A stretch of 64,000 nt of DNA from Mycobacterium intracellulare ATCC 13950 (GTDB lineage: Bacteria; Actinomycetota; Actinomycetes; Mycobacteriales; Mycobacteriaceae): contig NC_016946.1 in the NCBI RefSeq assembly GCF_000277125.1, positions 2,852,001 through 2,916,000 on the forward strand, given 5' to 3'. Position numbers and translations under genes: made by a program. Below the pieces are notes generated by a model, which saw only the letters and a list, made by a program, of their open reading frames with translations, did not search any database and was not told the DNA's origin. Positions 51,150 to 57,167 of the stretch are shown one piece after another; the stretch's first letter is position 1, and the number at the start of each line of letters is the position of its first letter.

Positions 51150-52502
51150 ATGAACGCTAGGAACGTACCGTGGGCGGTTCGGACCGCCGATCGGATCCCC
51201 AAACAGCGCTACTACGACCCCGAGTTCTACGCGCTGGAAGCCGAGATGTTGTGGCCCCGCATGTGGCAAATGGCGTGCCGGCTCGAGGAGATCCCCAAGC
51301 CCGGCGACTTCGTCGAATACGAAATCCTCGACCAGTCCGTCATCGTGGCGCGGGTGGACAACCACACCGTGCGCGCGTATCACAACGCCTGCCGGCATCG
51401 CGGCGTGAAGCTGGTGGAGGGCAACGGGAATCGGCGCACCTTCGTGTGCCCGTTCCACGGCTGGTGCTGGGGCCTCGACGGCCACAACACGTTCGTGCTG
51501 CGTCCCGAAGCGTTCGCCGAGGAAAACCTGAGCGCCGACGACCTTCGGCTCGTTGCGGTGCGATGCGAGCTCTGGGGCGGTTGCGCGTGGATCAACCTCG
51601 ACGACGACGCGCCGGCGCTGCGGGACTGGATGGAGCCGTTCGCGTCGGTCTACGACGCCTGGCAGGTCGACTCGCTGCGCGTCGAGTGGTGGCAATCGTG
51701 CCGGCTGCCCGTGAACTGGAAGCTGGCCGCGGCGGCGTTCATGGAGGGCTATCACGTCCCGCAAACCCACCCTCAGTTGCTGCCGTCCGCGCAGCCGGGT
51801 GAAGTCGCCGCGACGGTGCACCCGGTCGTCGCGAGCAGCCTGTATTTCATGCGCACCCTCGGCGACGGCATGGGCGGGATGACGCACGAAAACGACATCC
51901 GGATCGCCGAGGGCCTGCAGAACATCGAGCTGCCGCCCGACCCGGCGGCGGCAATGGCCGCGTGGCGCAGCGCCCTCAACGACGCCGTCGTCGCCTGGCA
52001 TCGGGCGCGCGGCAGCGGCATGCCCGACCTCAACGAGCTGGTCCGCCGCGGCATCACCGACGCGATCGGGTTCGCCTTCCCGCACTACTTCATCCTGCCG
52101 ACCTACAGCAGCGCGTCGTCGTACCGGATCCGGCCGCTGGGACCCGAGGACACCTTGTTCGAGATCTGGTCCCTCACCCGGTTTCCCAACGACGCATCGG
52201 CGGGTAAACCGACGCCCCCGGTACCGATGGCGCCCGACGACCGGCGCTGGCCGCCGATCCCCGCCCAGGACTTCTCCAACCTGCCGAGGCAACAAAAGGG
52301 GTTGCATTCCAAGGGCTTTGACTTCATGCGGCTGTCCAACCAGATCGAAGGATTGATCTCCAACTTCGAGCGTGTCATCGACGGCTTCCTGGCCGGGCTG
52401 CCGTACGACGCGCTGGTGCCCGCGATCCAGAAGACCAACACCACCATCGACGTGCCGATCGCCGATCTCGGCTTCACGACGAGCCCCGTGGAGGCGCGAT
52501 GA
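51150..52502 (+). CDS. Rieske non-heme iron oxygenase, alpha subunit
   Basis: A protein of 450 residues from ATG 51150, preferred over ATG 51144 because GAGG is 6 bases away. The Rieske [2Fe-2S] ligands are Cys81, His83, Cys100 and His103 (ACRHRG and VCPFHGW). The catalytic domain has the mononuclear iron pair in EGYHVPQTH (about 200-208). This is the layout of ring-hydroxylating dioxygenase or demethylase alpha subunits. No beta subunit, ferredoxin or reductase gene is adjacent, so electrons must come from a shared donor. Its last 4 bases overlap the flavoprotein gene (ATGA). Confidence 0.93.
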   Translation: MNARNVPWAVRTADRIPKQRYYDPEFYALEAEMLWPRMWQMACRLEEIPKPGDFVEYEILDQSVIVARVDNHTVRAYHNACRHRGVKLVEGNGNRRTFVCPFHGWCWGLDGHNTFVLRPEAFAEENLSADDLRLVAVRCELWGGCAWINLDDDAPALRDWMEPFASVYDAWQVDSLRVEWWQSCRLPVNWKLAAAAFMEGYHVPQTHPQLLPSAQPGEVAATVHPVVASSLYFMRTLGDGMGGMTHENDIRIAEGLQNIELPPDPAAAMAAWRSALNDAVVAWHRARGSGMPDLNELVRRGITDAIGFAFPHYFILPTYSSASSYRIRPLGPEDTLFEIWSLTRFPNDASAGKPTPPVPMAPDDRRWPPIPAQDFSNLPRQQKGLHSKGFDFMRLSNQIEGLISNFERVIDGFLAGLPYDALVPAIQKTNTTIDVPIADLGFTTSPVEAR

Positions 52503-54175
52503 GCCCGCAGTGGGACCGCTCCGTGGACCTGCTCATCGCGGGCAGCGGCGGGGGCGGCATGGTCGCCGGCCTGGCCGCCCTGGACTGCGGGCTCGAACCC
52601 CTCATCATCGAAAAGCAGTCACTGGTCGGCGGTTCGACGGGGCTGTCCGGCGGCATCGTCTGGCTGCCCAACAACCCGTTGATGCGGGCCGGCGGCATCG
52701 CCGACTCGCACGAGGACGGGCTGGCCTACTTGGCCGACGTGGTCGGCGACATCGGCGCGGCGTCCTCGCCCGAGCGGCGCGAAACGTTCCTGCGGGCCGG
52801 CCACGAGATGATCAACTTCCTCACCCGCAAGGGCGTGCGACTGATCCGATGTGCGGGCTGGAGCGACTACTACCCGAACCACAAGGGCGGCAACGCGTCC
52901 GGCCGCGCGGTCGAGGGCATCCCTTTCGACGCCGCACAGTTGGGTGATTGGCGCGACAAGGTGCAGCCGCCGCTGGCCAAGAATTACGGATACGTGGTGC
53001 TGACCAACGAATTGCGGTCGGTTCAATACTTCAACCGCTCACCGCGCGCCTTCGCCGTGGCGGCCCGGGTGTTCCTGCGCACCGCGGCCGCGCGTGCCCG
53101 CCGGCGCCAGATCCTCACCAACGGCGCATCGCTGATCGGTCAAATGCTCAAGGCGCTGACGGATCTCAGCGACGGGCACCCCCCGTTGTGGACCAACGCC
53201 GCGATGGCCGACCTCGTCGTCGAGGACGGCCGTGTGGTGGGCGCGCGCATCGTGCGCGACGGCACGCCGTTGCACGTCGAGGCGCGCAAGGGAGTCCTGC
53301 TGGCCGCGGGCGGATTCGGCCACAACAAGGAGATGCGCCGCCGCTACAGCGGCGACCAGCCCAACGAAGGGCAGTGGTCGATCGCCAACGCCGGGGACAC
53401 CGGTGAGGCGCTCGAGGCGGCGATGCGTTTGGGCGCCAAGACCGATCTGCTCGACGAGGCCTGGTGGCTGCCTTCGGTTTTCATCGCCAACGGCGGCGCG
53501 GTCGCCGCCTCGCTGGGCTCGGGCCGCCAGCGACCCGGCGCCATCTACGTCGACCCGAGCGGCCGCAGGTTCTGCAACGAGTCGAACTCCTACGTCGAGG
53601 TCGGCAAAGCGATGTACGCCAACAAGGCCGTGCCCTGCTGGATGATCTTCGACGAGGGATACGTCCGCAGATACGTCACCAGCGCCAACCCGCTCAAGCG
53701 CAACCAGCCGTTGCCGCCGGAACTGATCGAGTCCGGCGCCGTGAAGCGCGCGCCGACCATCGCGGAGCTGGCCGGCGAAATCGGCCTTCCCGCCGACGAA
53801 TTGGCCCGCACGATCCAGCGGTTCAACCGGTACGCGACCAAGGGGCTGGACCCGGACTTCGGCCGCGGCCAATCGGCCTACAACGACTGCCTCGGCGATC
53901 CGGGGTATCGGCCGAACGCCGCGATCGGGCCGCTCGACACCGCGCCGTACTACGCGACCCGCGTACTCCCGTCCGACGTCGGGACCTGCGGGGGCGTGAT
54001 CACCAACGAACACGCACAAGTCCTCGACCAACGGGATCGGGTGATCGAGGGCTTGTATGCCACCGGCAACACCACGGCCACGGTGATGGGGCGGACCTAT
54101 CCGGGTGCCGGGGCGAGCATCGCCAGCTCGATGGTGTTCGGGTACGTCGCCGCCCGCCACGCCGCCGGCAAGTAA
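52499..54175 (+). CDS. FAD-dependent dehydrogenase, 3-ketosteroid dehydrogenase-like
   Basis: A protein of 558 residues from ATG 52499. It has the N-terminal FAD-binding loop (GSGGGG, 15-20, with IIEKQSLVGGST after it), the FAD-binding-2 domain with LLAAGGFGHNKEMR (about 264-277), and a C-terminal GLYATGNTTATVMGRTYPGAG segment of the KstD/fumarate-reductase group. These enzymes desaturate keto-rings or enoates using FAD. It is the last gene of the plus-strand operon and its start overlaps the Rieske gene by 4 bases. The pairing suggests a cyclic substrate, but a steroid cannot be concluded. Confidence 0.93.
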   Translation: MSPQWDRSVDLLIAGSGGGGMVAGLAALDCGLEPLIIEKQSLVGGSTGLSGGIVWLPNNPLMRAGGIADSHEDGLAYLADVVGDIGAASSPERRETFLRAGHEMINFLTRKGVRLIRCAGWSDYYPNHKGGNASGRAVEGIPFDAAQLGDWRDKVQPPLAKNYGYVVLTNELRSVQYFNRSPRAFAVAARVFLRTAAARARRRQILTNGASLIGQMLKALTDLSDGHPPLWTNAAMADLVVEDGRVVGARIVRDGTPLHVEARKGVLLAAGGFGHNKEMRRRYSGDQPNEGQWSIANAGDTGEALEAAMRLGAKTDLLDEAWWLPSVFIANGGAVAASLGSGRQRPGAIYVDPSGRRFCNESNSYVEVGKAMYANKAVPCWMIFDEGYVRRYVTSANPLKRNQPLPPELIESGAVKRAPTIAELAGEIGLPADELARTIQRFNRYATKGLDPDFGRGQSAYNDCLGDPGYRPNAAIGPLDTAPYYATRVLPSDVGTCGGVITNEHAQVLDQRDRVIEGLYATGNTTATVMGRTYPGAGASIASSMVFGYVAARHAAGK

Positions 54176-55104: not shown

Positions 55105-55213
55105 GGTCGGACCATACCCTCCCGCGCCCCGCGCGCCGCCGATTTGACGGTTGCGCGATCGTGACGCGAGGAGTGAGCTGTACTGGGGCGCAGTGACGAC
55201 GGATGGGGCTGGT

Positions 55214-56050
55214 ATGGCGACTCCTCTCGACCGGGTGCAACAGCTGGATCTGGTGGCCCGGCTCAAATCCGCCTATCCCGAACTTCCGGACGCTCCCACA
55301 CCGGATCTCATCGACCACAAGCGATTCACCGCCTATGTCAAGACCCCGCACGACGTCGGCGGCGAGCCGGACGCCCCGATCGAGTACGAGAACAAGCAGT
55401 ACGAGATCTGGGAGCACAACACGTATGTCCTGTGCGAGGTGCTCGGCTGGCGTGGGATCTGGCTGTCCGAGGAACGGCGCCGGATGGGCAACGTCGATCT
55501 CGGCCGCACCATCTATCTCGGCCTGCCCTATTACGGGCGCTGGCTGCTGGCGGTGGCACGCGTACTCGCCGAAAAGCACCACATCGGGTTGAGCGAATTG
55601 GCCGAACGCATGGCCGAAGTCAAGGCACGCTACGCCGACGGCCTGCGCGGAAAGCCCTTGGCGGCGACGCCGAAGTTCGAGGGCGATCCCGCACCCGTCC
55701 ACCGCAACCGCCACCATGTCCATGCCGTGGGCAAGGGCGACCCGCAGGTGTATGCCGGGCAGGCCGGCGCACCGAAGTTCAGCGTCGGCGACAGGGTCGT
55801 GGTGCGCGATCTCCCCGTGCTGCTCTACACCCGCACCCAGGAGTATGTGCGCGGCGCGACGGGCGAGATCGCGGTCGTGTCCTACGAAAGCCCCGCCGCC
55901 GAGGACGAGACGTGGGACGGCCCGGACCAACGGCCCGAGTGGTTCTACATCGTCCGGTTCAACCTCTCCCAGTTGTGGCACGGCTACACCGGGCCCGGCA
56001 ACGACACCCTGCAGACCGAGATCCCGGAACGGTGGCTCGAATCGGCCTAG
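55214..56050 (+). CDS. thiocyanate-hydrolase/nitrile-hydratase beta-alpha type subunit
   Basis: A protein of 278 residues from ATG 55214; GTG 55193 is an alternative start. The N-terminal part (about 1-140; TPHDVGGEPDAPIEY, then GLPYYGRWLLAVARVL) corresponds to thiocyanate hydrolase beta, and the C-terminal part (about 155-278; FSVGDRVVVRDLPV, TRTQEYVRGATGEI, ending FNLSQLWHGYTGP) to thiocyanate hydrolase alpha. The length equals beta plus alpha joined, the form also seen as the single beta subunit of nitrile hydratase. It should assemble with the metal-bearing subunit encoded next. Similarity to thiocyanate hydrolase is judged from memory of that family. Confidence 0.85.
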   Translation: MATPLDRVQQLDLVARLKSAYPELPDAPTPDLIDHKRFTAYVKTPHDVGGEPDAPIEYENKQYEIWEHNTYVLCEVLGWRGIWLSEERRRMGNVDLGRTIYLGLPYYGRWLLAVARVLAEKHHIGLSELAERMAEVKARYADGLRGKPLAATPKFEGDPAPVHRNRHHVHAVGKGDPQVYAGQAGAPKFSVGDRVVVRDLPVLLYTRTQEYVRGATGEIAVVSYESPAAEDETWDGPDQRPEWFYIVRFNLSQLWHGYTGPGNDTLQTEIPERWLESA

Positions 56051-56083
56051 CCACGGCTGCGGCTTCGGAAGAAAGGACCACGA

Positions 56084-56788
56084 ATGAGCGCCGACGAACA
56101 CGATCACGAGCGCACCGCAGCGCCCATGGTGGACGAGATCACCGACTTCGAAGTCCTCGAGATCGCGCTGCGCGAATTGTGCATCGAGAAGGGCCTTTTC
56201 ACCGCGGAGGAGCATCGACGCTTCACCGAGTTCGCCGAACAGATCGGCCCCACCCCCGCGGCGCACCTGGTGGCGCGGGCCTGGCTCGACCCCGACTACA
56301 AGGAGCTGGTCCGTTCGGACCCCCTCGCCGCGAGCAAGGAGGTGGGGGTCGACTGGCTGGAACCGACCGGCTTCGGGACGCCCAGCGACTTCACGGCTTT
56401 GCACGTCCTCGAGGACACCCCGACGCTGCACCACGTGATCGTCTGCACGCTGTGTTCGTGCTATCCGCGGCCGATTCTGGGCAACTCCCCCGAGTGGTAT
56501 CGGACGCCCAACTATCGCCGCCGCATCGTCCGCTGGCCACGCCAGGTGCTCGCGGAGTTCGGCCTGATCCTGCCGGAGGACGTCGAGATCCGGGTGGAGG
56601 ACTCCAACCAGAAGCACCGTTTCATGGTGCTGCCCGTCCGCCCCGACGGAACGCAGGGGTGGACCGAGGAGCAACTCGCCGAGATCGTCACGCGCGACTG
56701 CCTGATCGGTGTCGCGCTGCCCAAGCCGGGCGTGACGACCAACGCCGTCACCCGGACCCGCGCCGCCGTCCATCCCGCAGCGCCCTGA
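56084..56788 (+). CDS. thiocyanate-hydrolase gamma / nitrile-hydratase alpha-type cobalt subunit
   Basis: A protein of 234 residues from ATG 56084 (AAAGGA 6 bases upstream). The metal-binding motif is VCTLCSCYPRPILG with Cys121, Cys124 and Cys126; Thr after the first Cys marks the cobalt type, and Cys124/126 positions are oxidised in mature enzymes. Nitrile hydratases usually continue YPWP, whereas YPRPILG and SPEWYR here are what thiocyanate hydrolase gamma has. The histidine-rich start (EHDHER) also fits that subunit. The reaction would be thiocyanate to carbonyl sulfide and ammonia; a nitrile remains possible. Confidence 0.88.
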   Translation: MSADEHDHERTAAPMVDEITDFEVLEIALRELCIEKGLFTAEEHRRFTEFAEQIGPTPAAHLVARAWLDPDYKELVRSDPLAASKEVGVDWLEPTGFGTPSDFTALHVLEDTPTLHHVIVCTLCSCYPRPILGNSPEWYRTPNYRRRIVRWPRQVLAEFGLILPEDVEIRVEDSNQKHRFMVLPVRPDGTQGWTEEQLAEIVTRDCLIGVALPKPGVTTNAVTRTRAAVHPAAP

Positions 56789-56795
56789 GCTTCCG

Positions 56796-57167
56796 ATGAG
56801 CACCGCGCACACCCCACGTCCGATCGAGGACTCTACCGTCGCACCGCTGACGAAAATCGTTGCGCGCAACCAGGTCTGGAGTCGCATGGCGGCGAAGTAC
56901 GGGGTCGACAACCCGGTGCCGCCCTGGCAGACGAGTCTCGACGGCATTTGTGATGCGATCGACCAAAGTCATTGCGGCGCACGGCTCCTCGGCCTTGTCG
57001 AGCGGCGCGACGACGAGGACGCGCTGTCGGCGACCCTCTACGCCGACCTGCCCTACCCGGAGAACCGGCTGGTTGCCCTGGCCCACTCGCTCGTCGCGCG
57101 CGGCGTCATCGACGAATCCGAACTCGAGGCGAGGCTGGCCGCCGTGCGCGCCAGGCTGGAATCCTGA
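56796..57167 (+). CDS. nitrile-hydratase/thiocyanate-hydrolase activator (P15K-like)
   Basis: A protein of 123 residues from ATG 56796, 7 bases after the gamma subunit. It resembles the N-terminal domain of the beta subunit (PPWQTSLDGICDAIDQ, DLPYPENRLVALAHSLVARGVIDESEL) and is the size of the P15K/NHase-activator proteins that insert cobalt and promote cysteine oxidation in the catalytic subunit. No separate cobalt transporter is adjacent. It ends the three-gene operon. Confidence 0.85.
   Translation: MSTAHTPRPIEDSTVAPLTKIVARNQVWSRMAAKYGVDNPVPPWQTSLDGICDAIDQSHCGARLLGLVERRDDEDALSATLYADLPYPENRLVALAHSLVARGVIDESELEARLAAVRARLES

Follow-up and report, generated by a model that had tools for sequence, protein, structure and literature searches.

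Three closely spaced genes in a 64,000-nucleotide stretch of the Mycobacterium intracellulare ATCC 13950 genome (hereafter 'the window') very probably encode a cobalt thiocyanate hydrolase (SCNase) of the nitrile hydratase family, likely employed in nitrogen scavenging. The operon is a two-chain variant of the known SCNase, annotated already in M. smegmatis. To our knowledge, SCNase has been biochemically characterised from very few bacteria, and as far as the literature searched shows, the two-chain form is uncharacterised in print: no description or assay of a fused SCNase beta-alpha chain was found in that literature, which was available in part and lay mostly outside subscription journals.

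Three genes and a fused chain

The gene order and the fusion are established by the sequence, and the tight three-gene arrangement recognised in the preliminary description stands. All three genes and the features within them lie on the forward strand, with gaps of 33 nt between the first and second genes and 7 nt between the second and third. The first (55214..56050, 278 aa) matches NHase_beta_N (86.4 bits) and NHase_beta_C (88.7 bits), and two successive matches sit inside its single open frame: residues 10-144 (55241..55645) are equivalent to residues 12-146 of T. thioparus SCNase beta (2dd4_B, E 4.7e-45), and residues 161-278 (55694..56047) to residues 8-126 of SCNase alpha (2dd4_A, E 3.4e-34), these subunits being the closest solved relatives of the chain. 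In the alignment, the matched parts are separated by a linker of 16 residues (145-160; 55646..55693), directly after which residues 161-178 align with the N-terminal extension of T. thioparus alpha. The ATG start falls at the same place in 19 of 20 aligned close relatives, the exception being locus L039; modelled by itself in AlphaFold2, the fused chain gave a poor structure (pLDDT 53.6). Separate alpha and beta subunits, the T. thioparus-type architecture, are not what the window operon encodes, and because one open frame spans both parts we place it as a two-chain variant rather than with the three-chain SCNase type.

The second gene (56084..56788, 234 aa) encodes gamma, the catalytic metal-binding subunit, whose cysteine motif and following arginine (CTLCSCYPR, 56444..56470) were located by alignment with SCNase and classical nitrile hydratases. 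Gamma is the sole NHase_alpha-family match in the source genome, a single contig of 5.40 Mb, and the beta and alpha domains (NHase_beta domains matching the 2dd4 chains) are both encoded beside it. The third gene (56796..57167, 123 aa) is P15K-like, and its position and weak beta-like similarity make its product a probable activator or cobalt-loading chaperone. In 98 of 100 related loci a P15K-like gene comes after gamma. The match to Pfam NHase_beta_N is weak (E 5.3e-4; 20.5 bits, slightly below the cut-off of 21.5), and activators of this kind are described as weakly similar to beta in the available part of PMC3511329. Searched alone against PDB sequences, the protein returned nothing at E 0.001; its family profile reached SCNase beta at E 8.6e-4, profile comparison of the P15K family with nitrile hydratase accessory proteins was not convincing (probability 4%, E 0.009), and in fold comparison the activator gave a weak match, level with that of an unrelated protein.

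As read from the ORF list, a divergent gene resembling enoyl-CoA hydratase borders the operon on one side, and a DEAD-box helicase-like gene lies downstream of it. Its G+C content (67.1%) is close to that of the window (68.2%), so the operon is not compositionally foreign. Measured against seven relatives, dN/dS is 0.04-0.09 for gamma, 0.08-0.15 for beta-alpha and 0.17-0.29 for the third gene; all three look to be under purifying selection, and for that reason we do not regard their arrangement as a product of chance. At 52499-54175 of the window lies a gene for a 558-aa flavoprotein, by sequence a 3-ketosteroid-dehydrogenase-like FAD enzyme, which was matched in 22 of 82 loci; the neighbourhood is therefore kept only within a close mycobacterial group.

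Thiocyanate hydrolase or nitrile hydratase

Family and phylogenetic place, established by comparison with curated models and solved relatives, bear out the initial suggestion of an SCNase rather than a nitrile hydratase. Gamma passes TIGR03887, the NCBI equivalog model for SCNase gamma (388.4 bits, cut-off 291.45), and fails TIGR01323 for nitrile hydratase alpha (207.6 bits, cut-off 249.85), while the fused chain fails TIGR03888 for nitrile hydratase beta (84.4 bits, cut-off 152.2). The closest solved relative of gamma is T. thioparus SCNase gamma (2dd4_C, E 8.9e-108, 69% identity). Gamma carries VCTLCSCYPRPILG, and its His-rich start, thought from the outset to be SCNase-like, is indeed common to the window and T. 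thioparus proteins. The C-x-L-C-S-C motif is followed in the window gamma by Y-P-R, so that Arg stands after CSCYP where the three solved Co-type nitrile hydratases aligned have Trp; by alignment of 3vyg_C, PDB 3vyg is an SCNase in which this Arg is changed, R to W.

A tree check proposed in the preliminary description gave the same answer, and the outcome which that description had named as refuting, a grouping with nitrile hydratases, did not appear. The tree held 55 sequences (31 SCNase and 20 nitrile hydratase-like rows hand-picked for spread, plus four PDB sequences; matches with stops or shorter than 150 aa were left out during extraction), and in it gamma and 2dd4_C share a 100/100 clade apart from the nitrile hydratases. 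Forcing gamma to unite with 11 Trp-type nitrile hydratase rows lowered the log-likelihood by 72 and was rejected (AU p 0.0004). In a second tree 7qop was dropped and L147 and L149 were added.

A nitrile hydratase, perhaps one for a particular nitrile, that merely resembles SCNase would make a one-chain beta ordinary, given that nitrile hydratase beta is usually a single chain (212-233 aa in the PDB entries). It would also fit the NHase_beta matches of both the beta and alpha parts and the order beta-alpha-activator, shared by most Co-type nitrile hydratases according to the available text of PMC7193024. We nevertheless consider this reading quite unlikely, since the curated nitrile hydratase models are failed, the union with nitrile hydratases is rejected in favour of a fully supported SCNase clade, Arg rather than Trp follows CSCYP, and an amidase is absent from the three genes and those adjoining them, as read from the ORF list. 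Set beside the window operon, the Co-type nitrile hydratases (1v29, 1ugp; activators NhlE, P14K) share the superfamily, the one-chain beta and an activator weakly related to beta; they differ in the Trp, the clade and the models.

The SCNase of T. thioparus THI115 (PDB 2dd4, 2zzd; EC 3.5.5.8) has the same three domain types, metal motif and following Arg, but divides between a beta of 157 aa and an alpha of 126 aa what the window encodes in one chain of 278 aa. The alphaproteobacterial thiocyanate-degrading enzyme of Hussain et al. 2013 is reportedly a single-chain, unrelated protein. An activator gene lies downstream in T. thioparus too (PMC7193024, available part), and actinobacterial members appear in a published SCNase gene tree (PMC10098168, likewise seen in part).

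Three-subunit systems of an Arg type annotated 'nthA' (Streptomyces L141, Planktothrix L144, and actinobacterial examples among L111-L131) also have CTLCSCYPR, but their beta halves lie in two frames and their catalytic subunit falls outside the SCNase clade. The rule that CYPR means SCNase was consequently abandoned as a stand-alone test: all 12 of the other Arg-type NHase-alpha-like rows in the tree lie outside that clade. The two-frame state was seen at L111-L119, L121, L122, L124-L126, L129, L131, L141 and L144; the catalytic subunit, read at all of these loci but L115 and L118, has CTLCSCYPR throughout, and the three such loci run against the NCBI nitrile hydratase alpha model all pass it.

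In nitrile hydratases, Thr and Ser in the cysteine motif go with Co and Fe, respectively. The second residue of the motif varies among the 100 loci (Ala in 71, Thr in 28, Gly in one), and L110 has Ser. This variability, with broken copies elsewhere in the genus, is what could be expected were the operon a non-functional or shifted remnant with a drifted metal site or substrate, yet the window copy is intact, retains the T. thioparus motif CTLCSC and appears to be held by purifying selection, and we judge a remnant extremely unlikely.

Spread and history of the fused chain

Conservation was followed through 100 loci, 20 of them from genomes of the same genus (the window copy included) and 80 named; because they were picked by gamma similarity, the set is skewed to close relatives. 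It spans Mycobacterium, Mycolicibacterium, Mycolicibacter, Nocardia, Hoyosella, Antrihabitans, Rhodococcus, Williamsia and Gordonia. The beta-alpha chain is single and unbroken at 99 of the 100, the remaining one (L017) being broken near residue 241. Of the 248 genomes sampled from the genus, 169 have gamma above the cut-off, at least 168 have a beta-alpha match of E 1e-100 or better, and at least 166, by hand tally, have both; some of the chains are incomplete or broken (e.g. G009, G638). Among the matches listed, gamma occurs without such a beta-alpha match in G460, where the beta-alpha ORF has only 81 aa, in G528, where the beta and alpha halves occupy two overlapping frames, and in G580. 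Broken or shortened copies were seen in G029, G031, G009, G638, G460 and possibly G528, which suggests repeated loss within the genus.

Across the phylum, gamma passes the cut-off in nine of 396 sampled genomes, all nine in the window's family, and the viral contigs searched held no relative. Two alphaproteobacterial plasmids, of Roseomonas marmotae and Azospirillum ramasamyi (L102, L103), carry a fused chain beside scnC; by eye, its linker is longer than the actinobacterial one and dissimilar. Neighbouring genes there include CbtA/CbtB in R. marmotae, a HupE/UreJ family gene in A. ramasamyi and a TauE/SafE exporter in both. Both plasmid gene tables call the fused chain simply 'SH3-like domain-containing protein', a label that conceals half of an SCNase enzyme.

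The fusion had first been remarked on as a departure from the classic separate subunits. The single chain is real, but it is not peculiar to the source genome, being usual in sampled Mycobacteriales, present on two plasmids and usual in nitrile hydratase beta; an oddity of one genome is ruled out by the 99 loci, the 166 or more genomes and the plasmids. Eukaryotic nitrile hydratase beta-alpha fusions, as described in the available parts of PMC2603476 and PMC7193024, join a whole beta to the catalytic subunit and are therefore a different joining.

The trees also bear on the origin of the SCNase fusion. In the first, every one of the 12 Arg-type rows lying outside the SCNase clade carries the beta halves in two frames, and the Trp-type rows, also outside it (eight loci and three PDB entries), have a one-chain beta in 11 of 11. 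Within the clade, G580 (L149, 750-2507), of the same genus as the window, carries a divergent SCNase operon of three genes together with a P15K-like gene; it encodes a beta of about 142 aa, an alpha of 104 aa whose start overlaps the beta stop, and a gamma that scores 395 bits on TIGR03887. In the second tree G580 branches first in the SCNase clade, with the remaining members at 98/98, and the split T. thioparus enzyme falls between the alphaproteobacterial and actinobacterial fused forms (98/88). At least three changes between fused and split states are needed on the tree; a single clade of fused SCNases is unrejected (AU p 0.11 and 0.096 in the two trees), as is a clade of the two split SCNases (AU p 0.08).

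Judged from these tree positions of split and fused forms, the SCNase ancestor probably had two separate halves, which were joined later and independently of the joining in nitrile hydratase; since the trees are midpoint-rooted and include few proteobacterial SCNases, this history serves as a lead only. Fusion as a simple ancestral state found no support, with G580 split and first-branching and the nearest Arg-type relatives split. Beta precedes alpha in the window's fused chain, in G580 and at the Arg-type loci. The gene order given for T. thioparus in the available text of PMC7193024, a review, is alpha, beta, gamma, activator. Beta may, however, precede alpha in T. thioparus as well.

A probable role in gaining nitrogen, and perhaps sulfur, from thiocyanate

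In the proposed mechanism, gamma would hold the metal, presumably cobalt, in the CTLCSC loop, the cysteines of which may be oxidised, and the fused chain would provide a helical beta part and an SH3-like alpha part. In T. thioparus SCNase, the helical beta and SH3-like alpha pack around gamma; with both parts coming from the fused chain, the enzyme would be a two-chain SCNase. The third protein, a beta-like relative of P15K, may assist cobalt loading into gamma. The putative substrate, thiocyanate, would be hydrolysed as SCN- + 2 H2O -> COS + NH3 + OH-, the ammonia being scavenged during nitrogen limitation and the COS either released or converted to H2S and CO2 by an Rv1284-type beta-carbonic anhydrase, yielding sulfur.

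Nitrogen scavenging from thiocyanate is the role we prefer as most likely, with sulfur perhaps gained too. Nitrogen limitation induces the M. smegmatis genes MSMEG_6266/6267, annotated as SCNase beta and gamma, by 3.68- and 3.42-fold; cyanate hydratase and amidases appear in the same table (PMC4617892, available part). In a PII mutant on nitrate their expression is raised about 2.4-fold (PMC11001197, available part). The two genes, nitrogen-regulated according to these sources, are likened to the window genes by annotation rather than by sequence; beta and gamma alone are listed, as a fused chain would give, and the available text mentions neither a fusion nor an activity assay.

The minus-strand stretch at 55150-55165, upstream of the operon, is a match to the GlnR site consensus GTNAC-n6-GNAAC, and the window's two matches (1.29 expected) are at chance level. 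In a wider set, 24 of 81 upstream stretches match with no or one mismatch, against about 11% in shuffles. A conserved GlnR-like site was nevertheless rejected, and the excess is not counted, because 15 of the 24 matches cover the start of the conserved divergent gene; the near-matches of the relatives lie elsewhere.

A COS hydrolase gene elsewhere in the genome, which the preliminary description had recommended seeking, has a candidate in an Rv1284-like beta-carbonic anhydrase (1ylk, E 3e-88) that also matches the T. thioparus COS hydrolase 3vqj (E 2.6e-36). In T. thioparus, COS made by SCNase is turned into H2S and CO2 by COS hydrolase, a clade D beta-carbonic anhydrase, and COS-degrading Mycobacterium strains seem to have clade D sequences (both from the available part of PMC5745022). 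The source genome also holds two cyanase genes and one NicO Ni/Co permease. None of the beta-carbonic anhydrase, the cyanase queried or NicO is a regular operon neighbour: in flanks of up to about 4 kb at 82 loci, the beta-carbonic anhydrase was found at none, one of the two cyanases at none and NicO at one.

The preliminary description had also raised detoxification of host thiocyanate, and an SCNase retained chiefly to clear this peroxidase substrate during infection has some points in its favour. By nearest relatives the source genome lies in or near the M. avium complex (the closest named gamma is that of Mycobacterium sp. WUMAC-067, at 98%, followed by M. vulneris, M. arosiense and M. colombiense among others, M. 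colombiense being a member of the complex). Gamma also scores above the cut-off, however, in most sampled genomes of the genus, as counted above, and it is found in Hoyosella, Gordonia, Williamsia and Antrihabitans, which are mostly environmental genera. SCNase genes do occur in Legionella pneumophila Paris and Lorraine, with alpha, beta and gamma all present in Paris (PMC3218107, available part), but the M. smegmatis genes are induced by nitrogen limitation (PMC4617892), and literature retrieved on thiocyanate, lactoperoxidase and Mycobacterium avium contained nothing on topic by title. With the operon in most sampled mycobacteria the suggestion is unsupported, and we hold it very unlikely; detoxification is conceivable as a side benefit, but so wide a distribution speaks against its being why the genes are retained.

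A broader proposal, which joins nitrogen scavenging to the history of the chain, can be offered tentatively and with rather low confidence: that most mycobacteria, equipped with a two-chain SCNase, may scavenge nitrogen from thiocyanate and produce COS as well as consume it, the fusion having arisen separately from that of nitrile hydratase beta, as would follow from the nearest Arg-type relatives and G580 keeping the halves as separate genes.

If true, a conserved, nitrogen-regulated SCNase in most sampled mycobacteria would be a new nitrogen source, and possibly a sulfur source, to be considered in mycobacterial physiology. It would also bring COS production to a genus with known COS-degrading soil strains (PMC5745022, PMC7308577, available parts). 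With two chains, the fused SCNase is itself a simpler enzyme on which to study structure and maturation, and it offers a point of comparison between SCNase and nitrile hydratase in which the same two domains occur joined or separate.
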